NCBI GenBank assembly: GCA_019347715.1
Contig: JAHWKU010000001.1
Span: forward strand, 124,001-188,000
From: Actinomycetota bacterium
GTDB taxonomy: Bacteria; Actinomycetota; CADDZG01; JAHWKV01
Direction: 5' to 3'
Length of the DNA: 64,000 bases
Numbering within the stretch: the stretch's first letter is position 1; every line of letters begins with the position of its first letter. The notes beneath the pieces are model-generated. The model was not told the DNA's origin. It worked only from the letters and a program-made list of their open reading frames with translations, and did not search any database. The position numbers and the translations under genes were made by a program. Shown piece after piece: positions 934 through 48,011 of this stretch.

Positions 934-3786
934 TCAGATGCCGTAAGCTTCTTGCACGCGGTCGCACAGTGCGCGCATCACAGCGAAGCCAGTTTCGATC
1001 CGGTCGCGCACTATCCTTTGAAATCGCGTCCTGTCGATGCTGATCGTCCGCACTTGGCCTTCACATCTCAGCGATGCCATCCGCGGGCTGCCACTGATGA
1101 TGGCCATCTCTCCCACATGTTCTCCCGGCCCCCGGACCCCGGCCTGAACCTCGGTGCCATCCTTGCCCGCGACAAGTACGTGTACGTGACCTGAGACGAT
1201 GATGTGCATCTCGTCGCCACCCTCCCCTTGGCGAGCGATGTACGACCCGTCGGGGTAGGAGTTCTCGACGGTCACCTCCGCGATCGAATGAAGATCGGCT
1301 GGTGACAAGTTCGCGAAAAGCGGCACGCTGCTCAGCATGAGCACGCGCTCTACTCGGTTCAATCCTGGGGCTGCTCTCATCGGCTCTCCTTCCTGCAAGC
1401 ATATGTTCGCCAACGCCGCTATCCATCCGTCTTCGTGCACGGAGAGCTGTCTGAGCGCATCGACTTCGTCCATGACGGGAGGCTGGTCCTCCCACGCGGA
1501 GACGAGAGGGCGTGCGAGATGCCTTTCGAGCGCCGACTCCAACGTCTCTATCGCGGTGGCCCGGTGGACCTTATTACTGCTTGCCAGACCATCGACGATC
1601 TCGGCGACCAGCACGCGGTCGTGGACCATCGCGGTGATGGCTCTCGCCGTCGCTTGTCGCTTCAATCCCTCCAGATGACGTTTGAGCAACGCGTTCGCGG
1701 GTGCTGAGGCTGAGACCCCTGTCGTCCATCGAGCTAAAGCGCCGGCGCGTTCGATCTCCGCCCTCGCGTACAGCTGCAACCGCTCGCGGTCGTGTCCGAT
1801 CCTAGCGAGTGCGCTCAGCGCCGGCAGGCAATAATGCGTTTGCACCACCTTCCACAACTCGTCGGACGAGGTCTGCTTGTCGGACAACATGTCCGCCGCC
1901 GCCCACGCAGTCTCCTCGTCAGGATCCAATAGCAACTCGATCAGCTGATCCGCGGTCAATCGCGCCCCGCCGTTGAGAACCGCCGCCCTGCGGACCTCAT
2001 CTTCGGGGTCCGTCAGTCCCTTCGCGACCATCTCGTCCGCTTCGACGACATCCTTGATCGCGACCATCGCCGCCAGTCGGCGGTTTTTGTCCTCCGATGA
2101 AGCCCAACGCTCAACCGTATCCAAGACCTCCAAGGAGCCCAAGCACAGCAGATAGTTAGCGGCTTTTGCAGCCACTGGCAGGTGCTCGTCGTCTATCAGG
2201 TGGCTCATCCGATCTCGGATGGCTGCGACCTCTCGCTTGGGGTCCTCCAGGAGCACATCGAGCGCAGCGGCGCGAACTCCAGAATCGTCGTCGGTCAGGG
2301 CGGAGCTGAGAGCATCGACATCAAGAAACCCACCTCGTCCGGATGCCAGCAACGCGAGGCTTCGGATATGCGGGTCTGGGTGAGTCAGCCCAGAGCTGCG
2401 CACGCGCTCTTCTTGCGTTCCGATCTCACTAAGCAAAGACCACGAGATCCGAGCGACAGATGCATCGTCGTCCATCGCCCCTGCGAGAAGCGTGCGCATG
2501 GCCGAGGCATCGTGGCGAAACTTAGCCAGCGACTGCCCAGGAGGTACGAAGACGTCCGGGTTCCCTGCTTCGAGAGCGGCGCGCACCGCAGACGGGTAGG
2601 CCGACCTCACGAATAGTGCCGAGACCAAGGCACCACCGGCTAGGATGAAGCCCGTCATCACGATCGACGATGGCCTCGTTCCCACAAAAAGCAACAGGGC
2701 TCCCGAAAGTGAGATTCCCAGTTGCAATGCTCCGCCCTCGAGCAACGTGCGCACCCGATCTCGGTGCTCTTCGAGGACGACGTTGTACATCGCTTGCCAC
2801 CCGGGCCCCCAGACGCCGTTGTACCAGACAAGCTGCACCAGCCGAACGATTGCAACGACCCCAAACGCCATGGTTACTGCGAAGCTCAGGAAACCCAGAG
2901 CGTATACGAGGGCCATCCCAACAACCGAAGCGCTGATGCCCACAGCTGCGAACAACCTGTTCGCGACTCCCAGCGAGACCATGAAAGCGATCGCGCTGCT
3001 GACACCGAAGAAGGCCCCCAAAAAGGCAGAAAGCTCATCGGTCGCTGGAAAACGCTGCGCAGCTGCGGTGGCGAATACGAACGCTACCAAGAAGTACAGC
3101 ATTGCAAGCATGAGCTGAACCGCGGCCATCCAGATCAACAGACGCGACTTCCTTACCACGCGGATGCCTTCTAACAGCAAAGAGATGGCTCGTGGTCGTT
3201 GTGCCCTCACAACCACCTGGCCCGAGACGAGGCCGGTGAGTTTCTTCGTCATCCATGCAGAGTAGAAAAGGGTCGCGGACCAGACCAAAAGCAGGTTTTC
3301 TGTGCCGATGGTCAGTGCAAGCGGCGAGGTTGAGAGGCCTCCGACGGAAGACCCCAGGATCATCGCTGCGCTGTACAGCGGGAAGAGCCGCTTGGCTTGG
3401 CGCATATCGTGCATGCGGTTAGCGAGGCCCCACTGTGCGACCATCTGGACCCCCCACATCACCATCATGGCGAGCCACAGTCCCTGGAATAGCTCTTGAG
3501 AAGGTGAAGAGACGACAGCCCTCGCCGCGAGGGCCGACAGCGCCATCAACACCATGGTTGCCGGAACGGTCCTCGGCGGACCGATTTTGCCAAGCAGCGC
3601 ACCATACGCTCCGAGCACTATGAAAGTAACGGGCCCAAGCAGGACGAAGAGCAGAGGTAAAGACTCGGTCCCGTAGCGAGAGAACAGCAGAGACTCAACG
3701 GCGCTGGCACCGATCATGCTTCCCGCCCATCCCGCACCCATCAGAGCTACCATGCGGCGCGCCACTGTGACTTCAGCGGGGCGCAC
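934..3786 (-). CDS. Membrane transporter-like / HEAT-repeat / cyclic nucleotide-binding domain protein
   Basis: A 950-residue protein of three parts. Residues 1 to about 410 carry about twelve hydrophobic segments like an MFS or ADP/ATP-carrier transporter. About 430-790 is a soluble run of helical HEAT-like repeats. About 810-950 is a cyclic nucleotide-binding domain with a conserved phosphate-binding cassette (GEHVGEMAI then PRMAS, with the Glu and Arg that contact the cyclic nucleotide). This order is known for NTT/Npt-like proteins in bacteria, but the transported substrate is unknown. The gene starts with GTG 24 bases after the stop of the cyclase gene at 3811-6423, so the two probably form one operon. 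A product of that cyclase could bind here and gate the transporter; that link is inference. Confidence 0.75.
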   Translation of the reverse strand: MRPAEVTVARRMVALMGAGWAGSMIGASAVESLLFSRYGTESLPLLFVLLGPVTFIVLGAYGALLGKIGPPRTVPATMVLMALSALAARAVVSSPSQELFQGLWLAMMVMWGVQMVAQWGLANRMHDMRQAKRLFPLYSAAMILGSSVGGLSTSPLALTIGTENLLLVWSATLFYSAWMTKKLTGLVSGQVVVRAQRPRAISLLLEGIRVVRKSRLLIWMAAVQLMLAMLYFLVAFVFATAAAQRFPATDELSAFLGAFFGVSSAIAFMVSLGVANRLFAAVGISASVVGMALVYALGFLSFAVTMAFGVVAIVRLVQLVWYNGVWGPGWQAMYNVVLEEHRDRVRTLLEGGALQLGISLSGALLLFVGTRPSSIVMTGFILAGGALVSALFVRSAYPSAVRAALEAGNPDVFVPPGQSLAKFRHDASAMRTLLAGAMDDDASVARISWSLLSEIGTQEERVRSSGLTHPDPHIRSLALLASGRGGFLDVDALSSALTDDDSGVRAAALDVLLEDPKREVAAIRDRMSHLIDDEHLPVAAKAANYLLCLGSLEVLDTVERWASSEDKNRRLAAMVAIKDVVEADEMVAKGLTDPEDEVRRAAVLNGGARLTADQLIELLLDPDEETAWAAADMLSDKQTSSDELWKVVQTHYCLPALSALARIGHDRERLQLYARAEIERAGALARWTTGVSASAPANALLKRHLEGLKRQATARAITAMVHDRVLVAEIVDGLASSNKVHRATAIETLESALERHLARPLVSAWEDQPPVMDEVDALRQLSVHEDGWIAALANICLQEGEPMRAAPGLNRVERVLMLSSVPLFANLSPADLHSIAEVTVENSYPDGSYIARQGEGGDEMHIIVSGHVHVLVAGKDGTEVQAGVRGPGEHVGEMAIISGSPRMASLRCEGQVRTISIDRTRFQRIVRDRIETGFAVMRALCDRVQEAYGI

Positions 3787-3810
3787 CTTTAGCAGGCCGC
3801 GGAGTTGCAG

Positions 3811-6423
3811 CTAGCCCTCCCCGGCACGCAAGAAATCCAGAGCCTTGGCCAGGATCTCCTCGTAGCTCAAGTCCCGCCCCTCTTGCAAGGCCTCGGGGTA
3901 CCTGGAACCCAGGGCATGCTCTATGTCTCTAGAGATCTGCATCAACTGCTCAGTGCTCGTACCTGGCGACCTAGTCCCAGATCGCTCGGACGTACTCAGG
4001 GCAGAACTCCATATCTGTGCCGCGAGCTCGGCAGACCCTTCCTCCAAAGCCATCTCGGCCGTCTTCAGGAGCGCCGGGATCAAGAGGCCGACTGAGCGCG
4101 CCTCCGCCATGCTCTGCAGTGCCTCGCCGTAATAACGTTTTGCAGCGGCAAGATCTCCTTTCATGCGGTTGATCTCGCCCATAGAGGCGAGGCTGTTGTG
4201 CTCACCCAAACGATCACCGTTCGCTCTGGCCTGCTTCAATCCCTCCTGGGCCATGTCCAAGGCGCCGTCCAGGTTTCCTTGCTCGAACAGCGCAAAGCTC
4301 ATGCCGCTGATGATGTGGCCGCGATACTCGGCATCACCGATGGTGTCTGCGATAGCAGAAGCTCTTTCGAATTGGTCCAGGGCGCGCTTAGGATCTCCGC
4401 TAAGCAGCAGCACCCAGGCGATGTTGTAAAGAGCCCACATCTCCCCTTTCGCGTCTGTAAGCTGTCGCGCCAAATCGAGAGCCCGCTGGTAGCTCTCTCC
4501 GGCCGCGGCGAGGTCGCCCATCCAATACACGATGCCCCCGTGTGCGATCAAGGCTCTTATCAGACTGCGGTCTTGGGGCCCTGGTAGCTCGATCACCTCC
4601 CCGAGCATCTGGGCACCTTCCGGCAGATGCCCCCGCTGTTGCCAGTACCGCCACAGCGAGGATCCGATGCTCCTTGCAAGACCGACCTCTCCCGAGGCGA
4701 TAGACCACTGCAATGCCGACCTCAGGTTCGCACGGTCCGAGTCGGCCAGATCCAGCCAATATCGCTGTTCGATTGACTGGACACCCACCTCGATCTGCTC
4801 CGACATGCGAGCAAACCTTTCTGCGTGCCTGCGTCGCGCGTCGCGCAAAATCTGCTTGTCGGTAGCTTCTATGGCGAACTGGCGCACCATCTCGAGCATG
4901 TTGAAGCGCGTATGCCCGCAGTCCGGTAAGCGGGTCAACAGGCTCTGATCAACGAGATCAAAGAGCGGCTGGCGCCAACCATCCCCACCCAGGACTTCGA
5001 TGGCGTCCGCCAAGTTGGCACCCCCGGAGAAGACTGCGATCCTCCCTAAGGCCTCCTTCTGGGCATCGTCGAGCAGGTCGTAGCTCCATGCGATCGTTCC
5101 TCTGAGCGAGCGATGGCGATCAGGAAGGTCCGAGCCTGACGGAGCGGTGAGTCCCAGATGCTCCTGCAGGTCTCGAGCGATCTCTCTTGCTGTCATGAAC
5201 TTCATCTGGTTCGCAGCCAGCTCGATCGCCAGCGGCATTCCATCGAGGATGCGGCAGATCTCAGCTATGTCGGCTTCGTCCCCGTGGGTTACACGGGACA
5301 CATCGATGCGAGCACCAGCCCGATCTAAGAAAAGCTCCACTGCATCAGCCGGGCCCCCTTCCCCCAAAGAAAGGCCCCCCAAAGAAAACTCATGCTCTCC
5401 CTGGATGTGAAGAGGTGACCTGCTGGTCACGAGGAATCGTGCTTCGGGGCACTGCTGCATCATCCGGCTGACCAACGGTGCTGCGTCCAAGACCTGTTCG
5501 AAGTTATCCAGAATGATGAGCATCCTCTGTGCCTCGACCGCCCGGACGATAGCAGCGAAATGATCCTGCACTCCTTGTAGTTCTACTCCCAATACAGCCG
5601 CGACGCTTGCGATGACTTGATGTTCTTGGCGATCAGTAGTTAGGTCGGCGAAGTAAACCCCGTCCGGCATGCTCGCTGATACAAGGGCAGCGATCTCTAT
5701 GGCTGCTCGGGTCTTTCCTATGCCGCCCGGACCGATTATCGATACGAGTCGCTCAGTGACTATCGCCTCCGACAGCGACTCGATCTCGTGCGCGCGGCCT
5801 ATGAAGCGGGTGGCTTTGATAGGGACTCCTACAGATCCTGCCCCTGGAAGAGATGGGAACTCCGTAGGTAGTCCCGAGATGTCGACTTGGAAGATCCGGA
5901 CCGGATCATCGAAATCTTTGAACCGATGGCTTCCAACATGTCGCATCTGGGCACCCTCGACAGCCGCGTTGGCCAAGACCCTGGTGGCTTCGCTGACCAG
6001 CACTTGCCCTCCCTGAGCTGCCCCCGCGATCCGAGCGGCCAGGTTCACATCCAGGCCGAGATAGTCCCCATCTACGAGGTGTCCGCTGCCTGTATGCATC
6101 CCCATCCGTACCGAGAGCCTGAGGGAGGTTGGCCACTGGGCCGCCGCCAACTTTCTCTGTGCATGCACGGCGGCTGAGACTGCCATTGCGGCCTCACTGA
6201 AGACGGCGAAAAAGGCGTCGCCTTCCGTTCTTACGACCGTCCCCCCCGCAGTGGTGATGGAGTCGTGGAGGATCTGGCCGTGGAGACTCTGGGCGAGCTC
6301 ATAGTCCTGGGGTGACTCCCTGAGCTTACGGGTGGATGATTCGATGTCGGTGAAAAGGAACGTAACCGTCCCCTGCGGTAACTCCCGTCGCGTTGAACCC
6401 ATCGCCGCGATCCTCTCACGCAC
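3811..6423 (-). CDS. Class III nucleotidyl cyclase / NB-ARC-type ATPase / TPR protein (paralogue 1)
   Basis: An 870-residue predicted cytoplasmic signalling protein. The N-terminal class III cyclase domain (about 17-185) has metal Asp26 (FTDIE) and Asp69, transition-state Asn127 and Arg131, and Asp120. The usual purine-selecting Lys is replaced by Arg65, so activity is plausible but substrate choice is uncertain. A STAND/NB-ARC-like ATPase follows, with Walker A GPGGIGKTR (Lys237) and Walker B LIILDN, then TPR-type repeats from about 590 to 830. No C-terminal LuxR DNA-binding domain is present, unlike several mycobacterial relatives. The GTG start at 6423 follows AGGAGAG at good spacing. The next gene in the operon encodes a cyclic nucleotide-binding transporter. 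Confidence 0.85.
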   Translation of the reverse strand: MRERIAAMGSTRRELPQGTVTFLFTDIESSTRKLRESPQDYELAQSLHGQILHDSITTAGGTVVRTEGDAFFAVFSEAAMAVSAAVHAQRKLAAAQWPTSLRLSVRMGMHTGSGHLVDGDYLGLDVNLAARIAGAAQGGQVLVSEATRVLANAAVEGAQMRHVGSHRFKDFDDPVRIFQVDISGLPTEFPSLPGAGSVGVPIKATRFIGRAHEIESLSEAIVTERLVSIIGPGGIGKTRAAIEIAALVSASMPDGVYFADLTTDRQEHQVIASVAAVLGVELQGVQDHFAAIVRAVEAQRMLIILDNFEQVLDAAPLVSRMMQQCPEARFLVTSRSPLHIQGEHEFSLGGLSLGEGGPADAVELFLDRAGARIDVSRVTHGDEADIAEICRILDGMPLAIELAANQMKFMTAREIARDLQEHLGLTAPSGSDLPDRHRSLRGTIAWSYDLLDDAQKEALGRIAVFSGGANLADAIEVLGGDGWRQPLFDLVDQSLLTRLPDCGHTRFNMLEMVRQFAIEATDKQILRDARRRHAERFARMSEQIEVGVQSIEQRYWLDLADSDRANLRSALQWSIASGEVGLARSIGSSLWRYWQQRGHLPEGAQMLGEVIELPGPQDRSLIRALIAHGGIVYWMGDLAAAGESYQRALDLARQLTDAKGEMWALYNIAWVLLLSGDPKRALDQFERASAIADTIGDAEYRGHIISGMSFALFEQGNLDGALDMAQEGLKQARANGDRLGEHNSLASMGEINRMKGDLAAAKRYYGEALQSMAEARSVGLLIPALLKTAEMALEEGSAELAAQIWSSALSTSERSGTRSPGTSTEQLMQISRDIEHALGSRYPEALQEGRDLSYEEILAKALDFLRAGEG

Positions 6424-6441
6424 GATCGCTCTCCTAGCGCA

Positions 6442-6654: not shown

Positions 6655-8043
6655 GTGGTGGAAATCTACGAAGACTTGATGGCCCTGGTCGGCAAGACCC
6701 CCCTCGTTGACCTGAAACGAATAGCCGCAGGGGTTCCGGCACGAGTCGTGGCCAAGCTCGAGATGCTGAACCCAGGCGGGAGCATCAAGGACCGAATCGG
6801 CGGCGCAATGATCGAAGCTGCGGAGAAGGCTGGCGACCTAAAGCCTGGTGGCGTAATCGTCGAACCAACAAGCGGGAACACTGGAGTCGGACTTGCGATT
6901 GCCGCGGCCCATAAGGGCTACCGCTGCATCTTCGTCATGCCTGACAAGATGAGTCAGGAAAAGATCAACCTGCTTCGAGCCTACGGAGCTGAAGTAGTCG
7001 TCACACCCACGGATGTCGCGCCCGAGTCACCGCGCTCTTACTACAGCGTCGCGAATCGTCTTACCGAGGAAATCCCCAAAGCGTTTCAGCCGAATCAGTA
7101 TCACAACCTTGCCAATCCCGAGGCTCACTACCTGAGTACGGGCCCCGAAGTTTGGGAGCAAACTGAAGGCGCGGTAGCTGCCTTCGTGGCCGGCGTTGGC
7201 ACCGGTGGAACGATTTCGGGTGTAGGCAAGTTCCTCAAAGAGAAGAACCCGGAAGTTTTGATCGTCGGAGCGGACCCTGAGGGTTCCATCTACACCCAGC
7301 CCGAAGACATCCACCCGTACCTCACTGAGGGAATCGGCGAGGACTTCTGGCCGGAAACTTTCGACCGCTCGATCGTCGATCGGTGGGAGAAAGTCTCGGA
7401 CCAAGAAGCCTTCCACATGACTCGACGGCTCGCCAAGGAGGAGGGCATCCTGGCCGGCGGATCCAGCGGAAGCGCTCTGGTCGCAGCTTTGAGGGTTGCA
7501 TCAGACCTCCCCCCAGAAGCAGTTGTCGTTGTTCTCTTCCCGGACGGGGGACGCTCCTATCTCTCCAAGGTGTACAACGATGCTTGGATGGCCGAGCATG
7601 GCTTCCTTCGCCGGCCGGCCGCAGACGCGGTAGTCCGCGACGTCCTCACGATAAAGGGAGAGGAACTTCCGCGGCTGATCCACGTTCACCCTCAAGAGAG
7701 AATTGGTTCCGCGATCGAAACTATGCGCGAGTACGGAGTGTCCCAGATGCCTGTGATTCGCGATGACGACTCTCGAGAGGTCGGATCGATTATCGGCTCG
7801 ATAAGAGAGCGTGACCTCCTCGATGTTGTTCTCAAAGATCCAAACGCGTTCGAGACGAAAATCGTCGACGTGATGCGGCCCCCAATGAGGATGGTCGATG
7901 TCGGAGAGAGAGTGGATTCACTTGTTTCAGCACTCGGGGGAGGCGACCCTGCGATCATCGCAATCGAGGAGGGCAAACCCGTTGGGGTGATCACCCGAGC
8001 CGACCTTCTTACTTTCTTCGAAGTCAGGAGTGAAAGACGATGA
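6655..8043 (+). CDS. Cystathionine beta-synthase with C-terminal CBS domain pair
   Basis: A 462-residue PLP enzyme predicted to condense serine and homocysteine to cystathionine, the first step of reverse transsulfuration. Lys45 in NPGGSIKDR is the Schiff-base lysine. EPTSGNTG binds the substrate carboxylate and GVGTGGTISG the PLP phosphate. Residues about 325-460 form two CBS motifs, a regulatory module found in the longer bacterial and eukaryotic enzymes but not in plain cysteine synthase. The start is one of two tandem GTG codons (6655, 6658) after GGGGAAG. The stop overlaps the start of the next gene in ATGA, indicating translational coupling to cystathionine gamma-lyase/synthase. O-acetylserine-dependent cysteine synthase is the main alternative for the catalytic domain. 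Confidence 0.88.
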   Translation: MVEIYEDLMALVGKTPLVDLKRIAAGVPARVVAKLEMLNPGGSIKDRIGGAMIEAAEKAGDLKPGGVIVEPTSGNTGVGLAIAAAHKGYRCIFVMPDKMSQEKINLLRAYGAEVVVTPTDVAPESPRSYYSVANRLTEEIPKAFQPNQYHNLANPEAHYLSTGPEVWEQTEGAVAAFVAGVGTGGTISGVGKFLKEKNPEVLIVGADPEGSIYTQPEDIHPYLTEGIGEDFWPETFDRSIVDRWEKVSDQEAFHMTRRLAKEEGILAGGSSGSALVAALRVASDLPPEAVVVVLFPDGGRSYLSKVYNDAWMAEHGFLRRPAADAVVRDVLTIKGEELPRLIHVHPQERIGSAIETMREYGVSQMPVIRDDDSREVGSIIGSIRERDLLDVVLKDPNAFETKIVDVMRPPMRMVDVGERVDSLVSALGGGDPAIIAIEEGKPVGVITRADLLTFFEVRSERR

Positions 8044-34538: not shown

Positions 34539-37500
34539 ATGAGCGATAGAGCGATGCCGGAACTGCCGACAGGGACCGTGACATTTCTCATGACCGACGT
34601 CGAAGGCTCGACGCGTCAGTGGGAAGCTCATCCAGACAACATGCGCGTTGCCACCGAGAGCCTTAACGAAATCCTCTACGACGCCATCGGAAAAGCAAAT
34701 GGCAGTCGTCCCGAAGAACAGGGAGAAGGCGACAGCGTGGTGGCCGCGTTCTCGCGAGCGAGCGATGCCGTGGCAGCTGCCTTGGATATCCAGCAGAAGC
34801 TTGTAAAGGAAGTATGGCCGGACGGAATTGCCCTCCGTGTGCGAATGGGAATCCACACAGGAGAAGTCCAGCTACGCGGTGAACGCAACTATTTCGGCCC
34901 TCCGCTAAATCGTTGCGCGCGACTGCGCGACCTGGCCCACGGCGGCCAGATTTTGTTGTCTCCGGCGACTGAACAATTGGTCAGGGGTTCGCTTTCTGCA
35001 GGGTCCCGCCTCCGGGATATGGGACCTCAGAGAATGAAGGATCTTTCCCAGCCCGAACGCGTCTTTCAACTTACGCATCCCGACTTGCCCGACGAGTTCC
35101 CTCCCCTGAAATCCCTCGAAGCGTTGCCGAACAATCTGCCCGTTCAATTGACAAGCTTCGTCGGCCGCGAAAGAGATATGGAGAAGATCCGAAAGCTGAT
35201 TTCCACTTCACGTCTTGTCACCCTCACCGGAGCAGCCGGCTGCGGCAAAACCCGGCTCGCCGTACAGGTCGCGGCGAATTTATCCGACGAGTTCGACGAC
35301 GGAGTTTGGTTCGTCAACCTCGCCGCCGTTACCGACCCTGCCCTCGTCCCCCACTCCACTGCCGCAGCCCTTTCAGTACAAGAGGAACCGCGCAGAGCCA
35401 TCGTCGAAACCCTTATCGATCACATGCGGGACCGCAGAATGCTACTCATCTTCGACAACTGCGAGCACCTTCTCGCAGCCTGTACGGAACTGGCCGCCGT
35501 ACTCCTCAAGTCGTGTGTGGAATTGGTGATAGTCGCCACGAGCCGCGAACCACTGGGGGTGGAAGGAGAAACTTCTTGGAGAGTGCCTTCGCTGGCTATC
35601 CCAAACCTTGAGAGTCAGGGCTCACCCGATGAATTGATTAACTACGAGGGCACACGCTTGTTCATGGAACGCGCGGTTGCTGTCGCCTCAGACTTTCGAG
35701 CCGACTCAGACGAGGTGCTCGCAATAAGCCAGATCTGCCGGCGACTCGATGGCATACCACTTGCGATCGAACTGGCCGCGGCCCACGTCGATGTCCTCAC
35801 ATGCGAGCAGATCGCATCGAGACTGGATGATCAGTTCCGCATCCTGACCGGAGGAGCCCGCACGGCTCTCGAACGACAACAAACTATGCGGGCCGCGGTC
35901 GAATGGAGCTACGAGCTGCTCACCGATTCAGAGCGCTTAGTCCTCGACCGACTTTCTGTGTTCGTTGGTGGATTCTCCTTGGAGGCCGCAGAGGAAGTAT
36001 GCGCAGACGAAACCGTAGAAGCCTTCGATGTCTTCCGGCTGCTGTCATCCCTCGTTAGGAAGTCGTTAGTGATAAGCGAGAGACGCCCGCATGCGGTCCG
36101 ATATCGGCTGCTAGAAACGATCAAGCAATACGCGCGAGATCGCCTGCGTGAATCCGGCGAAGGGGCCGAGGTTCGGGCCCGTCACCGAGACTGGTTTCTT
36201 GAACTCGCCGAGCGCGCCGAGCCTGAACTAACGGAAGGAGGAAGACAGGTCACGTGGATGGCGCTATTGGAGGAGGAGCACGATAACCTCCGCGCAGCGC
36301 TCGAGTGGTGCGCGGACGATGAGGATCCCGGCCCCATGGCCCGCCTGTCTTCCGCGCTGCATTGGTTCTGGTACGTGCGCGGCTATGCCGGTGAGGGACG
36401 CCGCTGGTTCAAAAGGGCGCTCGAACGACGCGAGCAGCTCCCAACAGAACTCATGGCCAAGGCGCTTCATAGTGCCGGATTACTTGCTTGGGTTCATCAC
36501 GACCACAGGGCCGCGCTCCCACTGCTGAATGAGAGTCTGTCGATTAGAAGGGAGTTGGATGACAAACGAGGCATCGCTCAGACACTAGGAACTTTGGGAA
36601 ACGTTCACTCCTCCTTGGGCGACAACGAGAGTGCAGCGGCCTTGTGGCAAGAGAGCCTCGAAATCCGTCGCCGAATCAATGATAAGCGGGGGGCTGCAGC
36701 CGTACTCGCGAATCTGGCCGTCTTGACAGCAGGTAAAGGCAACTACGAGGACGCATTGAAGTCGTACGAGGAGTCCGTCGCACTAAACCGAGAAGTCGGA
36801 GACCGGCACAACGAAGCTTTGTCACTCTTTAACATCGGTGGGATCTGGGATGCTCAGGGCGATTACGCCACGAGCCGTCGCTACTACGAAGAGGCCCTCA
36901 CGATTGGGCGTGAGCTCGGGGCAAGTCAACTGACCATTATTTGTCTTGGCTTTCTTGGTGGAACTGCCTTCAACCAAGGCGACTATGAAGCGGCCAGGAG
37001 CTGGTGGGAGGAATGTGCCGACAAGAGCCGCCGAGCCGAACACGTTTGGGGAGAGTCCTTCACTCGCGGGACGCTTGCGTATCTCAGTGCGAGCTACGAG
37101 GAGGGCAGGAGATTGTGCGAAAAGGCGGCAGCCATTTCCCGAGAGGCTGGTGAGAAGGGACCTTTGAGGTCTGCGCTTAGATGGGCTGCCCAATGCGCCA
37201 TGGGAGAAGGTGACTCGGTAAGGGCAAAGACATACCTGAAAGAAGCGCTCGAGATCTCGAGAAGTCTGGAACCGGACTCGGCGAGACTTGAGCTACTGGC
37301 TCTCGCAGAAGTGGCGCAGGCAGAGAATGATTTTCAGCAAGCAGCTGATTTTGGACGCCAGTCCCTCCCGATGGCTCGTGATCATCGAGACCGCCAGAGC
37401 ATGGGTTTCGCCCTGCAAGCTATTGGAGCCGCAGAGATCGGCCTCGGCGATATGGACCGGGCAGCCCAACTGTACGCTGCGGGACAAAGGGTTCTCGACG

Positions 37501-37658
37501 AGATCGGCGCGAAGCTCTATCCGCACATGCAGCCCGCCTTTGAGGCCTCGGTTTCGTCTCTCACCAATGCGCTGGGGGCTGAAAAATTCGACGAGCTTTG
37601 GGAAGCAGGAAGGTCGATGCCCCTCGAAGATGCGATCGATCTGGCGTTGCGGTCTTAA
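34539..37658 (+). CDS. Class III nucleotidyl cyclase / NB-ARC-type ATPase / TPR protein (paralogue 2)
   Basis: A 1039-residue protein of the same layout as the gene at 3811. Cyclase domain about 8-185: metal Asp20 (MTDVEGST) and Asp65, Asn124 and Arg128 for catalysis, and Gln61 with Asn117 in the substrate-selecting positions. A Gln/Asn pair in place of Lys/Asp has been described for mycobacterial Rv0386. The ATPase has Walker A GAAGCGKTR (Lys237) and Walker B LLIFDNCEHL, followed by a winged-helix-like region and TPRs from about 640 to 1000 (SLGDNESAAALWQESLEIRR and similar). No DNA-binding domain is present. An ABC exporter pair follows on the same strand. Confidence 0.88.
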   Translation: MSDRAMPELPTGTVTFLMTDVEGSTRQWEAHPDNMRVATESLNEILYDAIGKANGSRPEEQGEGDSVVAAFSRASDAVAAALDIQQKLVKEVWPDGIALRVRMGIHTGEVQLRGERNYFGPPLNRCARLRDLAHGGQILLSPATEQLVRGSLSAGSRLRDMGPQRMKDLSQPERVFQLTHPDLPDEFPPLKSLEALPNNLPVQLTSFVGRERDMEKIRKLISTSRLVTLTGAAGCGKTRLAVQVAANLSDEFDDGVWFVNLAAVTDPALVPHSTAAALSVQEEPRRAIVETLIDHMRDRRMLLIFDNCEHLLAACTELAAVLLKSCVELVIVATSREPLGVEGETSWRVPSLAIPNLESQGSPDELINYEGTRLFMERAVAVASDFRADSDEVLAISQICRRLDGIPLAIELAAAHVDVLTCEQIASRLDDQFRILTGGARTALERQQTMRAAVEWSYELLTDSERLVLDRLSVFVGGFSLEAAEEVCADETVEAFDVFRLLSSLVRKSLVISERRPHAVRYRLLETIKQYARDRLRESGEGAEVRARHRDWFLELAERAEPELTEGGRQVTWMALLEEEHDNLRAALEWCADDEDPGPMARLSSALHWFWYVRGYAGEGRRWFKRALERREQLPTELMAKALHSAGLLAWVHHDHRAALPLLNESLSIRRELDDKRGIAQTLGTLGNVHSSLGDNESAAALWQESLEIRRRINDKRGAAAVLANLAVLTAGKGNYEDALKSYEESVALNREVGDRHNEALSLFNIGGIWDAQGDYATSRRYYEEALTIGRELGASQLTIICLGFLGGTAFNQGDYEAARSWWEECADKSRRAEHVWGESFTRGTLAYLSASYEEGRRLCEKAAAISREAGEKGPLRSALRWAAQCAMGEGDSVRAKTYLKEALEISRSLEPDSARLELLALAEVAQAENDFQQAADFGRQSLPMARDHRDRQSMGFALQAIGAAEIGLGDMDRAAQLYAAGQRVLDEIGAKLYPHMQPAFEASVSSLTNALGAEKFDELWEAGRSMPLEDAIDLALRS

Positions 37659-41699: not shown

Positions 41700-44594
41700 C
41701 TAAACCAAAAACACTAATTCCGCCGCCTCTTCTTCTGACATCTCGCGGCCCTGGTTCCAGAGAGATCTGAAGCTGTCCGGATCAAGGGCAGTTCTTAGCT
41801 TATGAACAATTCTCTCGTGCTCTTTTATCGCAACTGGAGGAAGCGGTGAGCCAATCGACTCCCGTAGGGTCTCGGCAGCAGCCAGCAACCGGACGCCTGT
41901 TTGGAAACGGCCGACATCGGCCAGAACTGAACCGAAACCTTCCAGGGAACCGGCAATGCCTGGCTTGTCGTCCAACTCCTGCCGTACACGAAGCGACTCT
42001 CGATGGAGGGATATCGCACGCTCATGATCGCCGTCTTCCCGAGCCACCTCGGCCAGCCCGCCCAACGAGCTCGCTGAGCTCTGCTTGTCCCCCAACTCTC
42101 TTGATAAATCAAGACTCTGTTCGAACAGCTTTTTGGCCGCTCCTAGATCTCCCTGCAAGCGGTCGATCTCGGCACAGTTGTTGAGAGCTCGCCCCATGAC
42201 CCATTTATCCCCCAACTCACGTGACAATTCGAGATCCTCATCGAATGTCTTTCTGGCCAGGACGAGATCTCCTCTTAACAACGCCACCTCGCCCAAGTTG
42301 TTCAATGACCGAGCTATCAGCCATTTGTCTTGAAGACGGCGTGAGATCTCAATGCTTTCCTCGTAAAGCCTTTGGGCTTCGAGGTAATCTCCCTCTTCCT
42401 GGGCGAGGTTTCCGAGGTTGTCCAGCGACCGTGCCACGCCCTGCGGATCGCCGATCTCTCGCCAGATCTTCAAGCTCTCTCCATAACGACTTCGCGCCTG
42501 TCCGTACTGGCCTTGGCTGTACGAGACGATCCCGAGGTTTGCGAGGGTGGCCGCGATACCAGCGGCATCGTCTAGATTTCGGCGGAGTGCCAAAGCCTCC
42601 TCGTACTTAGTTATCGCTGCATCGTGATCTCCCTGCATCCAGGCCAGCGCTCCCGCGGCATTGAGGGCCTTCGCCCTGACGGCGGGGGCAGGTTCGGTCC
42701 CCGAGGCTAAGGCTTCTTCAAGCCATCGCCGACCCTCACTGAGGTGTCCGTGTGTCGTCCAGAGGCGTGCCAGCGCGCCGGTTAGACGAAGAGCCGCATC
42801 TGCAAACCCTCGGCCAATTGCCCACTGAAGCGCAGCCCGAAGGTTGTCATGCTCAACCTCCATGGTTTGGAGCCACTCGGAAGTCGTGACGTCGGGTTCA
42901 CTCCTTTCTGCTAGTGAAAGGAACCACTCGAGATGCGAATCGCGAGTTACCTCAACCTCCCCCGACTCCTCCAATCGATCACCCGAGTAATCTCGAATGG
43001 TCTCCAGTAAGGAATAGCGCGCGCCATCGCTTCGTTCCTCGAAGACGACAATCGACTTGTCCACGAGCGCCGACACCAGCTCGATATGAGACCCCGGGCG
43101 GAGTTCATCTCCAAGGCACACGCCCTCGACTGACTCGAGGCTGAATCCACCGGCAAACACCGATAGCCTTCTAAGAAGAGTGCGTTCCTCATCGTCGAGA
43201 TGGTCGTAGCTCCAGTCGACCAGAGCCTTTAAAGTCTGCTGCCGCGGAAGCGCGGTCCTGCTGCCACCGGTGAGAAACGTGAAGCGATGATCGAGTCTCT
43301 CGGCAATCGTTTGTGGAGAGAACGCCCGGATGCGCGCCGCGGCAAGTTCGATTGCTAGCGGAATTCCATCGAGGTGGAAACAAATTCGTGCCACCGCGTC
43401 GGCGTTCTCGGTCGAAAGAGAGAAGGCAGAGTCAACGTGAGCGGCACGGTCGACGAACAGGCGAACGGATTCAAAACGCATCAAGTCGTCAACGGAAGGG
43501 GAACTTTGAGGATCGGGTACAGGAAGCGACGGCACGCGATAAGTGGTCTCGCCTGGAACATTGAGGGGCTGCCGGCTCGTAGTCAGAACGCAGAGATCTG
43601 GACGAACACGCAACAGCCGATCCGCAAGATCTGCGCATGCCTCGAGCACATGTTCGCAATTGTCGAGTATCAGAAGAAGGTTCTTTCCGAGAAGGAAATT
43701 CGCCAAGGCTTCGAATGCATCGGTTCTTCCTTCTTCCCGAATCGAAAGGGCGCCCAAGGCGGTTTGAATTACGAGGGCGGAATCATTGAGGGCCCCAAGC
43801 TCCACCACGAACACTCCATCTGGATAATCCCCGGCCACTCTGGCACCCAACTCCAAGGCAAGGCGTGTCTTGCCACACCCACCGGAACCCGTCAGCGATA
43901 GCAACCTCGTTCCCGATAAAAGGTCAGCAACCTCTTGCAACTCTTGGTGACGACCAACAAAGCTCGTAAGCTGAAGCGGCAAGTTGGTCGATCGGCTCTC
44001 CAATCTTCGAACTGCCGGGAACTTGTCTGGAAGGCCCGGTCGGGACAGTTGGTACAGGTGCTCTGGTCGTTCCAGGTCCCTCAGGTAGTGCAAACCGAGG
44101 TCGATGAACGAACCACCGCCGGGAACACGGTTCTGTACAGAGTCCCTTACGGCTTGAGACGCAATTATTTGTCCTCCGTGCGCAACATCTCTGAGACGCG
44201 CGGTTCTATTGACATCCCGTCCGTAGTAGTCGTTCCCCCGGAGCTCAGCTACTCCGGTGTGCAGGGACATCCGCACCCGGATAGCCAATCCCCCCGGCCA
44301 TTCCTCGCTGAGAAGGCTACCTTGGAGTTTCAACGCGCAACTAACAGCATCGCTCGCAGATCTGAATACGGTGAAGGCGCTATCCCCCTCACCTCTGGTC
44401 TTAATGATCACTCCTCCGCAGGAACCGACCGATTCTCGAATCAAATCGTCGAGGCGGGCGAGCGCCAGGGACATCTCAACAGAATGGGCTTCCCACAGCC
44501 GCGTTGAACCTTCAACGTCCGTCAATAGGAAGGTGACCTTCCCTGTAGGCAGGTTCCCCGCGGGCTCCCCGATTGAGGATCTTTCATCCGACAT
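41700..44594 (-). CDS. Class III nucleotidyl cyclase / NB-ARC-type ATPase / TPR protein (paralogue 3)
   Basis: A 964-residue relative of the proteins at 34539 and 44742. Cyclase domain about 14-190: metal Asp26 and Asp71, Asn129 and Arg133, and Arg67/Asp122 in the substrate-selecting positions. ATPase: Walker A GSGGCGKTR (Lys242) and Walker B LLILDNCEHV. Long run of TPRs from about 600 to 900 with repeated EGDYLEAQRLYEESIEISR-type units. It is convergent with the ABC exporter pair and divergent from paralogue 4, with 147 bases between the two starts. No clear ribosome site precedes the ATG. Confidence 0.87.
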   Translation of the reverse strand: MSDERSSIGEPAGNLPTGKVTFLLTDVEGSTRLWEAHSVEMSLALARLDDLIRESVGSCGGVIIKTRGEGDSAFTVFRSASDAVSCALKLQGSLLSEEWPGGLAIRVRMSLHTGVAELRGNDYYGRDVNRTARLRDVAHGGQIIASQAVRDSVQNRVPGGGSFIDLGLHYLRDLERPEHLYQLSRPGLPDKFPAVRRLESRSTNLPLQLTSFVGRHQELQEVADLLSGTRLLSLTGSGGCGKTRLALELGARVAGDYPDGVFVVELGALNDSALVIQTALGALSIREEGRTDAFEALANFLLGKNLLLILDNCEHVLEACADLADRLLRVRPDLCVLTTSRQPLNVPGETTYRVPSLPVPDPQSSPSVDDLMRFESVRLFVDRAAHVDSAFSLSTENADAVARICFHLDGIPLAIELAAARIRAFSPQTIAERLDHRFTFLTGGSRTALPRQQTLKALVDWSYDHLDDEERTLLRRLSVFAGGFSLESVEGVCLGDELRPGSHIELVSALVDKSIVVFEERSDGARYSLLETIRDYSGDRLEESGEVEVTRDSHLEWFLSLAERSEPDVTTSEWLQTMEVEHDNLRAALQWAIGRGFADAALRLTGALARLWTTHGHLSEGRRWLEEALASGTEPAPAVRAKALNAAGALAWMQGDHDAAITKYEEALALRRNLDDAAGIAATLANLGIVSYSQGQYGQARSRYGESLKIWREIGDPQGVARSLDNLGNLAQEEGDYLEAQRLYEESIEISRRLQDKWLIARSLNNLGEVALLRGDLVLARKTFDEDLELSRELGDKWVMGRALNNCAEIDRLQGDLGAAKKLFEQSLDLSRELGDKQSSASSLGGLAEVAREDGDHERAISLHRESLRVRQELDDKPGIAGSLEGFGSVLADVGRFQTGVRLLAAAETLRESIGSPLPPVAIKEHERIVHKLRTALDPDSFRSLWNQGREMSEEEAAELVFLV

Positions 44595-44741: not shown

Positions 44742-47700
44742 ATGAGCAACGAAGGGGGGCAGGCCCTCCCAAGCGGCACCGTCACGTTCGTATTCACGGA
44801 CATGGAGCGCTCGACGACTCTCCTCCAGAGCGTAGGGGAAGAGAGGTACGCGCGACTGCGGGAGGGTCACCACAAGGTCCTGAGACGGGCATTTGAAAAA
44901 CATGGGGGCGTCGAGTTCGAGTCCGAAGGCGACGCCTTCTTCGTGGCGTTCAGCCGCGCCGGACTCGCAGTGGCGGCGGCCCTCGCGGCTCAGCTCGAGA
45001 TGCACCAGGTTCAACCTGAAGTCAAGGTGAGGATGGGGATCCACACCGGCCACGCGTCCGTTTCCACAACGGGGTACATCGGTCTTTCACTGCATCAAAC
45101 CGCGCGGATCGCGGCCGCGGGTCACGGGGGTCAGGTTCTGGTCTCCGAAGCGACCCGCCCCCTTGTAGGGGAGGCAGACCTTCCCATGGACGCCGGCTTC
45201 CTCGACCTCGGCCAACACCGATTCAAGGATCTCAGCGCGCCGTTGCGCATCTACCAGCTGACCCATCCCGGGTTGCCAGACGACTTCCCTCCAATCCGGT
45301 CACTCGAGGCCCGCGCTCACAATCTTCCGATACAGCTGACCAGCCTCGTGGGGAGGGACGAGGAGATCGAAGAGATCTCGCGCCTTCTTGACGCGAACCG
45401 GTTGGTCACTCTGGCCGGCGCCGCCGGTTGCGGGAAGACGAGGCTCGCCCTTCACGTCGCCGCCGAGCTTCTCGATCGATATCCAGACGGGGTCTGGCTG
45501 GCAGAGCTGTCGCAGTCCTCCGATCCCCAAGACGTGCCCATGAAAGCGGCTGAGGCGGTAGGTCTGCGATTCGACCCGGGACCTCAAACAGAAGCGAATC
45601 AAACACCGGACGTTACGGAAAGCCTGCAGCGGTACCTGGAACCGAAGCGGCTGCTATTGGTCTTGGACAACTGCGAGCATCTTTTGACCGCTTGCGCAGG
45701 GCTGGCTCATGCACTCCTGCAAACCTGTCCAGGGGTTAAGGTCCTCACGACCTCCCGCGAGGCCCTGGGAGTGGCGGGAGAGTCTTCACTGCGGGTGCCG
45801 TCGTTATCTGTGCCCGATCCCAGCCGTGTCCCTCCACTCGAGGAGCTCACCGACTACGAGGCGGTTCGTCTCTTCGTCGAACGCGCTGCTCTCGCAGAGC
45901 CGGGCTTCGGTCTGACCGAGGACACCAGCGAAGCTGTAGTCCAGATCTGCCACCGGCTGGACGGCATGCCGCTGGGAATAGAGCTCGCCGCCGCGAAAGT
46001 GAGGATGCTCACCCCTCAACAGATCGCCGACCGGCTCGATGAGATGTTCCGGATCCTGACCGGAGGCGGAAGGGTAGCACTGGAGCGCCAGCAGACGCTG
46101 CGCGCCGCGGTCGATTGGAGCTACCGGTTGCTGGCAGAGCCCGAGAAGCTGCTACTCCAAAGGCTGTCGGTGTTCGTCGGAGGCTTCGACCTCGAGGCGG
46201 CCGAGGAGGTCTGCTCGGGTGACGGCATCGAAGGAGATCAGGTGCTGGATCTTCTGACTCACCTGGTGGACGCCTCCTTCGTCGTAAGGCTGATCCATCG
46301 GGGAAAGTCCCGGTACCGGTTGCTCGAAACCATCCGGCAGTACGCCCGCGAGAAGCTCTTCGACTCAGAGAGCAGCTCTGCGATCCGCAACCGCCATCGG
46401 GATTTCTACCTTGGGGTCGCCGTTCGGATGTCCGAGGAGATGTTCGCCGGAAGAACCAGCCGCGCCAACGAGATCGCCGACGACGAGGTCGAGAACCTGC
46501 TCGTCGCATTGGACTGGAGCATCGGAGAGGGACACGTCGACGAGGCCCTGCGGCTGGGCTATTCGCTGGCTATGACGCAGATCCCACGAGCGAGGTTCTG
46601 GGAGTTCCGCCGGCAGTACGAGGAGGTACTCGATATCAGTGCCGGCGAGGAGACACCCCCGCGCGCAGATGCTCTTGCATTTGGCGGCGAGATCGCCGCG
46701 CACCGGGGCGACCCAGGGGCCAGAAGGATGGCCACCGAAGCAGTGGCTCTGTTCCGCAAACTCGGGGACCGCGCCGGTCTCGGCAGGGCCCTCTCACACC
46801 TTGGAGAGACGAGCCTCCGCCTTGGGGATACGGAGGCCGATGACGCCTTCGCCGAGGCTCTGCCCATCTTGAGGGAGACCGAGCAGAATTGGTGGATCGC
46901 CAGGACGCTCGTCGCCCTCGCGCGGCTAGCCTGGACGCGAGATGACCTGGAGGAAGCCCGGTCGAGATCGGAAGAAGCCTTCCAGTTCGCCCGCGCCAAC
47001 CGGATCCAATACGCCATGCTGGTAGCGGGCTACGATCTGGGATCTATACAGATCCAGCAGGGCGACTACGAAGGGGCCCGATCCTCGGATCTCGAGATCC
47101 TGGCACTCGCCGAAGAGCTGAACCTTCCGAACTGGATAGCCGAGATCCAGATCGGTCTGGGGCGTCTGGCCCAATGGCAGGGCGATCACGAAGAGGCAAC
47201 CTCGATCTTCGAACGGGCGCTGGCCTCGGCGCGAGGGTCGGGCCACCCCATCGCTTTGGGCATCGCCTTGGATAAACTTGGCTACGCGGCTGTCGATCGC
47301 GGGGAATTCCAGCAGGCACGCTCCTACTGGGAGGAGGCGCGGGGTCCCTTATCTATCGTGGGTGCCAGCCCCGGTCACGATATCCGGCACCTCTATGCCC
47401 TCGGCTGGGTCGCTTTGCTCGAAGGAGACCTGGCGGCGGCGCGCCCTCATCTGGAGGAGGCCCTGGCCGTCGTCCGGACCATGGAATCGAAGCACTTGCG
47501 GGCCGCGGTGCTCCACATGGTCGGTGAACTGAACCGCCTGGAAGGCAACATCGAGGAGGCTCGCAACTTTCTCGAGGAAGGCCTTGCCCTCGCCAGGGAG
47601 GCCGCCCACAAGTTCTACATCGCCAACGTTTTGTCGGGGTTGGGGGAGGTGGCGAGGATCGAGGGAAACCACTCCAAAGCGCTCGACCATCATCGAGAGG

Positions 47701-48011
47701 CGATTCGGCTAAGTGTAGAGATTGGCAACAAGTTCGGCCTGGCAGAATCCCTTCAAGCCTTGGGGGCACTTGCCGCCGCGGTCGGAAGGCCCCGTGAGGC
47801 CAGCCGGCTGTTGGGAGCAGCCGAGGCTTTGTTCGAGTCCACGGGCGCCGCCGTCGCTCCCATCTCGGTGCAAGCACGCGAGGAGGCCATCGCGCAGACA
47901 AAGCCCGAGCTTTCAACTGAGGAGTTCGAAGCCGAGCGGGAGAAGGGTCGCGCGATGGGGGCCGAAGAAGCGGTGGACTACGCCCTCTCCGAAGATCTCG
48001 GACTCGGATAG
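44742..48011 (+). CDS. Class III cyclase-like / NB-ARC-type ATPase / TPR protein (paralogue 4, divergent active site)
   Basis: A 1089-residue protein, the longest of the four. The cyclase-like domain keeps metal Asp20 (FTDMERST) and Asp64 and the Arg122, but the transition-state Asn is His118 (SLHQTAR) and the substrate-selecting positions are Glu60 and Gly111. It is therefore likely inactive or altered. The ATPase is intact: Walker A GAAGCGKTR (Lys232) and Walker B LLVLDNCEHL. TPRs fill about 600-1050. A regulatory pseudo-cyclase that senses nucleotides or partners through the TPRs is a reasonable guess. Confidence 0.85.
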   Translation: MSNEGGQALPSGTVTFVFTDMERSTTLLQSVGEERYARLREGHHKVLRRAFEKHGGVEFESEGDAFFVAFSRAGLAVAAALAAQLEMHQVQPEVKVRMGIHTGHASVSTTGYIGLSLHQTARIAAAGHGGQVLVSEATRPLVGEADLPMDAGFLDLGQHRFKDLSAPLRIYQLTHPGLPDDFPPIRSLEARAHNLPIQLTSLVGRDEEIEEISRLLDANRLVTLAGAAGCGKTRLALHVAAELLDRYPDGVWLAELSQSSDPQDVPMKAAEAVGLRFDPGPQTEANQTPDVTESLQRYLEPKRLLLVLDNCEHLLTACAGLAHALLQTCPGVKVLTTSREALGVAGESSLRVPSLSVPDPSRVPPLEELTDYEAVRLFVERAALAEPGFGLTEDTSEAVVQICHRLDGMPLGIELAAAKVRMLTPQQIADRLDEMFRILTGGGRVALERQQTLRAAVDWSYRLLAEPEKLLLQRLSVFVGGFDLEAAEEVCSGDGIEGDQVLDLLTHLVDASFVVRLIHRGKSRYRLLETIRQYAREKLFDSESSSAIRNRHRDFYLGVAVRMSEEMFAGRTSRANEIADDEVENLLVALDWSIGEGHVDEALRLGYSLAMTQIPRARFWEFRRQYEEVLDISAGEETPPRADALAFGGEIAAHRGDPGARRMATEAVALFRKLGDRAGLGRALSHLGETSLRLGDTEADDAFAEALPILRETEQNWWIARTLVALARLAWTRDDLEEARSRSEEAFQFARANRIQYAMLVAGYDLGSIQIQQGDYEGARSSDLEILALAEELNLPNWIAEIQIGLGRLAQWQGDHEEATSIFERALASARGSGHPIALGIALDKLGYAAVDRGEFQQARSYWEEARGPLSIVGASPGHDIRHLYALGWVALLEGDLAAARPHLEEALAVVRTMESKHLRAAVLHMVGELNRLEGNIEEARNFLEEGLALAREAAHKFYIANVLSGLGEVARIEGNHSKALDHHREAIRLSVEIGNKFGLAESLQALGALAAAVGRPREASRLLGAAEALFESTGAAVAPISVQAREEAIAQTKPELSTEEFEAEREKGRAMGAEEAVDYALSEDLGLG

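Follow-up and report, generated by a model that had tools for sequence, protein, structure and literature searches.

Does a protein with a cyclic nucleotide-binding domain (CNBD) read the product of a nucleotide cyclase encoded directly beside it? This question is raised by two neighbouring genes, P0001 and P0002, in the window, i.e. the whole 64,000-nucleotide stretch analysed here, which belongs to an actinomycetotal genome (G000). A first-pass annotation had read the locus as a cyclase-ATPase-TPR gene followed 24 bases later by a gene for a protein with a transporter-like N-terminus, HEAT repeats, and a CNBD with an intact phosphate cassette, together forming a self-contained signalling module. 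It advised looking for the pair in other genomes and for the nearest characterised transporter.

The locus and its junction

The features of the locus, all on the minus strand, are as follows:

3811..6423, minus strand: P0001, class III nucleotide cyclase - NB-ARC ATPase - TPR protein, 870 aa, GTG start, AGGAG at 6431-6435
5881..6390, minus strand: predicted cyclase catalytic domain, residues 12-181, with D26 and D69 (metal), R65 replacing Lys, D120, N127, R131
5044..5826, minus strand: NB-ARC/STAND ATPase region, residues about 200-460 (Pfam)
3988..4572, minus strand: TPR region, residues about 618-812 (Pfam)
3815..3822, minus strand: GGGGAGGG, likely ribosome-binding site inside the end of the cyclase gene, for a CTG start at 3808-3810 (read from sequence)
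934..3786, minus strand: P0002, NTT-HEAT-CNBD protein, 950 aa as called from GTG 3786, probably starting at CTG 3810
2557..3786, minus strand: NTT (TLC-like) membrane domain, residues 1-410, with conserved D127-x-R129-x-A131-K132-R133 and N276-R277
1387..2529, minus strand: HEAT-repeat region, residues about 420-800 (Pfam, predicted-structure run)
952..1338, minus strand: CNBD, residues 817-945 (Pfam, similarity, and alignment)
1072..1113, minus strand: phosphate-binding cassette GEMAIISGSPRMAS, residues 892-905, with E893 and R902 invariant in 15 of 15 relatives

Both open reading frames (ORFs) are present where the first-pass annotation had placed them and share one reading direction. Beyond P0001, a divergent gene begins at 6655, the product of which looks like a cystathionine beta-synthase/cysteine synthase. 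The annotated gap of 24 nt holds between the called ends, but the true gap may be 0 nt if translation starts at CTG. The stop codon of P0001 (TAG, 3811-3813) is followed in frame by CTG CAA CTC CGC GGC CTG CTA AAG GTG CGC CCC, and the encoded LQLRGLLKVRPAEV aligns with the N-termini of relatives (MRRLAKLFKVHPGEE in L075, MSALASAFRIRPGEG in L069), i.e. similarity picks up directly after the cyclase stop codon. This homology, together with GGGGAGGG just before the stop, favours the CTG at 3810, which is probably the true start of P0002 and likelier than the GTG at 3786. Between 3784 and 3822 a single TAG, preceded by the putative ribosome-binding site, separates the cyclase and carrier ORFs, both of which lie in the same frame. 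Read-through of this TAG, yielding a cyclase-carrier fusion, was considered and dropped, since a common frame is a one-in-three chance and the ribosome-binding site better explains separate initiation.

The cyclase P0001

P0001 matches the Pfam families Guanylate_cyc (residues 17-156, 35.8 bits, cut-off 21.9), NB-ARC (217-449, 25.4 bits, cut-off 23.5), and TPR_12 (75 bits), in agreement with the annotated cyclase-ATPase-TPR make-up. The roles of the class III cyclase residues are taken from the accessible portions of two papers (PMC4886424; PMC4174876). Both metal-binding Asp residues (D26, D69) and the transition-state Asn and Arg (N127, R131) are kept. At the substrate-specifying site Asp120 is kept and the usual Lys is replaced by Arg65, which counts against the explanation favoured below. 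Judged by the kept residues, P0001 is a predicted cyclase that may be catalytically active. Cyclase-like proteins with other substrate pairs are described in the accessible portion of one of these papers, as is Rv1900c, which has His for the Asn (PMC4886424).

The motif RTEGDAF is present in all three carrier-partner NB-ARC cyclases with the domain in hand (window, L075, L078) and in none of the other cyclase rows in which the search pattern matched; the motif patterns used for the cyclase residues missed several rows. L075 and L078 resemble P0001 in this motif but have His in place of the Asn, and the Ad_Cy_reg cyclases found beside carriers retain Lys, Asp, Asn, and Arg. The domain order of P0001 is that of actinobacterial cyclase-NB-ARC-TPR proteins that we take to be of the Rv0386 type; set against these, P0001 has Arg65/Asp120 and Asn127/Arg131. 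Three more cyclase-NB-ARC-TPR genes lie in the window (34539-37658, plus strand; 41700-44594, minus strand; 44742-48011, plus strand), two of them divergent neighbours. A tree built from 27 cyclase-NB-ARC rows of 8 genomes, the window's own among them, places P0001 on a long end branch and does not unite the four carrier partners in one clade (2 changes), a single clade not being rejected (p-AU 0.287).

The carrier-like protein P0002

The membrane domain of P0002 alone scores below the Pfam TLC cut-off (17.8 vs 21 bits), which is passed by its homologues P0004 (25.9) and L047 (24.1). A 14-sequence carrier profile, run against PDB sequences at E <= 1, matched the ATP/ADP translocators 9j3n and 9j3j only (E 6.5e-9, 7.1e-7). 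These results give the annotated transporter-like N-terminus a TLC/NTT-like identity and make the ATP/ADP translocators (AtNTT1, 9j3j; 9j3n) its nearest characterised relatives by this profile. An AKR..PLFG-type loop is common to P0002 and the translocators (AtNTT1, 9j3j/9j3l; ADP,ATP carrier protein 1, 9j3n), the similarity being weak. To our knowledge, the plastid and parasite ATP/ADP translocators possess neither HEAT repeats nor a CNBD tail. The N-terminal domain of P0002 is predicted to be an NTT-like carrier domain, with a nucleotide or related compound as its putative cargo. AlphaFold2 models, each built with four sequences, were too poor to bear on the carrier or on coupling. Mean pLDDT was 50.8 for the whole carrier, with <50 in its membrane part, and 46.7 for the membrane domain modelled alone, and Foldseek gave this last model no match at E <= 0.001.

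C-terminal to the membrane domain, the annotated HEAT repeats are recovered by Pfam (HEAT_2, residues 490-576, 39.6 bits, cut-off 27.7), followed by a cNMP_binding match (PF00027, 843-927, 66.9 bits, cut-off 27.5). The phosphate cassette is indeed intact: all 15 full-length carriers have the ribose-binding Glu E893, the phosphate-binding Arg R902, and A904, and 14 of them have G892. The residue after the cassette Arg is usually Ala or Thr in CNBDs and is Met in P0002. Given the kept cassette, this domain is a predicted sensor, the ligand of which would be a cyclic nucleotide. A functional parallel, in the sense of working alike only, is offered by mll3241 (MloK1; CNBD match E about 1e-11), since each combines a transport-type membrane part with a C-terminal CNBD. 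However, mll3241 is a cyclic nucleotide-gated channel, whereas P0002 is carrier-like, and we know of no HEAT linker in mll3241.

Distribution and recurrence of the pair

Membrane-domain profiles recovered 16 genes for NTT-HEAT-CNBD carriers in 15 of 396 genomes, a sample that represents one phylum (Actinomycetota) and consists of metagenome-assembled genomes with short contigs. Two contig pieces (L070 and L142), probably one gene of G236, were counted once and left unjoined. The carrier is present in 1 of 24 genomes of the window's class, 11 of 27 of the class of G057, and 3 of 66 of that of G385, these class samples overlapping. No other carrier turned up in the 24 genomes of the window's class, so such a gene can be gained or lost, which counts against the favoured explanation. 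Residues 1-513 of the L047 carrier had no tblastn match among plasmid records. Alignment and tree took 15 of the 16 genes, with the G236 fragment left out. In the membrane-domain tree the window's carrier groups with L073 and L075 (genomes G217 and G256) with support of 98/98, and in all three a cyclase-NB-ARC gene lies directly upstream of the carrier; this operon recurs in three sampled families spanning two or more classes.

The flanks of all 16 carrier genes were inspected, and a cyclase is the immediate neighbour of 13. The arrangement varies, with three cyclase architectures in four relative orientations. A cyclase with an N-terminal Cys motif lies upstream of the carrier in five loci (L067, L068, L069, L080, L081), convergent to it in L074, and divergent in L077. 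L071 and G236 have two cyclase neighbours, an Ad_Cy_reg-cyclase upstream and a Cys-motif cyclase that is convergent. In L075 the carrier is preceded by a cyclase-NB-ARC gene, and in the window by one that also encodes TPR; a cyclase-NB-ARC-TPR gene follows it in L078, 8 nt away. L073, counted among the 13, has an upstream ORF truncated by the contig end that encodes NB-ARC-TPR and no more than the C-terminal end of a cyclase domain. Among the loci not counted, L076 has a downstream ORF, cut by the contig end after 106 aa, that shares 54% identity across 93 aa with the N-terminal region of the L074 TPR-cyclase. In L079 (genome G229, 5 cyclases in 5.6 Mb) cyclase and carrier belong to one co-directional run with two genes between them, and in L072 no cyclase was seen beside the carrier in the flanks taken. 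The order in L079 (3-9825) is cyclase-ATPase, receiver/thioredoxin-reductase-like oxidoreductase, CNBD-histidine kinase, and NTT-HEAT-CNBD carrier, the names of the two middle genes being putative.

Chance would yield 0.25 adjacent pairs among the 16 (P(>=13) about 3e-22), and collapsing by genus leaves an adjacent cyclase for 9 of 11 carriers (P about 2e-15). The estimate uses the 5 to 46 cyclases per genome and assumes one gene per kb; the genes being related, the P values serve as a guide. On the carrier tree, cyclase type changes at least three times and arrangement at least three times over 12 labelled rows, and thus the pairing has outlived several exchanges. Co-occurrence, which the first-pass annotation had advised checking, extends beyond the window. 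Of its module claim, the pairing is supported; self-containment is doubtful in a genome with 23 cyclases and 8 CNBDs.

The reciprocal search, made with the N-terminal Cys-motif region, found 14 genes in 14 of the 396 genomes, one per genome. Nine of them adjoin a carrier (G246, G130, G057, G079, G236, G120, G100, G307, G385). The other five lie away from a carrier (G198, the window's genome on contig C13, G376, G384, and, as a partial match, G188), which speaks against the favoured explanation, as does a His at the transition-state Arg position of the f9 Cys-motif cyclases (VNIAAHL); in their f38 counterparts the Arg is present (VNVAARL). The group has a Lys-Thr pair, presumably recalling class IIIb. 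Short cyclases with a CxxC...CxxC N-terminus are located in L069 (6089-7015), L071 (9607-10428), L074 (9242-10066), L077 (8151-8948), and L080 (765-1625).

Relation to known NTT-HEAT-cNBD proteins

Fusions of NTT, HEAT, and cNBD domains are known from Cyanobacteria, Chlamydiae, oomycetes, and other groups and are described as functionally uncharacterised in the accessible portion of the paper reporting them (Major, Embley and Williams, 2017; PMC5381601). Tuning of ATP uptake by cAMP from an adenylate cyclase is proposed there as one possible role, and Table 1 includes one actinobacterial NTT. P0002 has the identical domain order, with membrane, HEAT, and cNBD parts all agreeing with those described in that portion. 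In the same portion, the word 'cyclase' occurs once, as a hypothesis, and no cyclase neighbour is reported, whereas in our sample a cyclase adjoins most of the carriers. A literature search confined to one open collection found no earlier report of a carrier-cyclase linkage. The architecture itself was already known, and what is new here is the gene linkage between cyclase and carrier. Its persistence while both the kind of cyclase and the order of genes vary is the first outside evidence, within the literature searched, for a CNBD of this kind reading a locally made cyclic nucleotide, and the pairs are compact two-gene systems for testing the supposed link of these carriers to cAMP.

Proposed mechanism and alternatives

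We consider it probable, with considerable room for doubt, that P0001 and P0002 constitute a translationally coupled signalling pair, in which the CNBD would detect the cyclase product and the activity of the carrier would be set accordingly. In favour of this reading are the recurrent adjacency, the supported group of three carriers with a cyclase-NB-ARC gene upstream, the reciprocal association with Cys-motif cyclases, the co-directional run in G229, the invariant CNBD cassette, the catalytic residues kept in P0001, and the same-frame junction with its putative ribosome-binding site; the three carrier loci left out of the 13 speak against it. The NB-ARC/TPR half of P0001 would act as a sensor that switches the cyclase, which would then produce a cyclic nucleotide, most likely cAMP. 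Binding of this molecule to the CNBD at the tail of P0002 would induce a change that the HEAT solenoid may relay to the NTT-like membrane carrier, and transport of a nucleotide or related compound might be either raised or lowered in response. If true, a secondary carrier would be governed by a second messenger for which it has a source of its own, and one purpose of the numerous actinobacterial cyclases would be explained. A bolder version, which we regard as rather unlikely, is an autoregulated nucleotide valve: the dedicated cyclase would turn nucleotide into a gating signal, and the CNBD would open or close a carrier of ATP or another nucleotide. Across lineages the pairing would be conserved while the sensor driving the cyclase is swapped (STAND ATPase/TPR, Cys-motif, Ad_Cy_reg), and even export of the cyclic nucleotide by the carrier is conceivable.

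The two genes might instead be co-regulated only, with a CNBD that reads the general pool or binds no cyclic nucleotide, a neighbouring cyclase that is not its dedicated source, or a carrier-CNBD that feeds back on the cyclase. The abundance of cyclases and CNBDs in G000 offers many sources for such a pool, and cyclase residues are degenerate in several partners. However, simple co-transcription does not predict an adjacency that persists while the type of cyclase changes, and the CNBD cassette is invariant, so we judge this reading unlikely. Improbable, too, is a functional pair in which the NTT-like domain is a membrane receptor or anchor instead of a carrier, with cyclic nucleotide, HEAT repeats, and CNBD acting on another partner. 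It would fit the sub-threshold TLC score of the window's domain and the role of HEAT repeats in protein-protein interactions, noted in the accessible portion of PMC5381601, but not the restriction of the PDB profile matches to ATP/ADP translocators, nor the many membrane-domain residues that are invariant across 15 of 15 carriers. Chance neighbourhood in cyclase-rich genomes, for which the abundance of cyclases and the six of the eight CNBD genes of G000 that lack an adjacent cyclase might be cited, is highly improbable, as the adjacency counts of the sample reject it.

Other CNBD proteins in the same genome

The 23 class III cyclase domains and 8 CNBDs of G000 are contained in 2.43 Mb, and several of the CNBD proteins stand alone, with about 140-150 aa. 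The six unpaired genes indicate that cyclase-CNBD pairing is not universal, yet two pairs occur in G000. The second is located on contig C44 (L148 5709-6140 and 6174-8174, plus strand), where a gene for a 143-aa CNBD protein is followed after 33 nt by one for a 666-aa TPR-cyclase.
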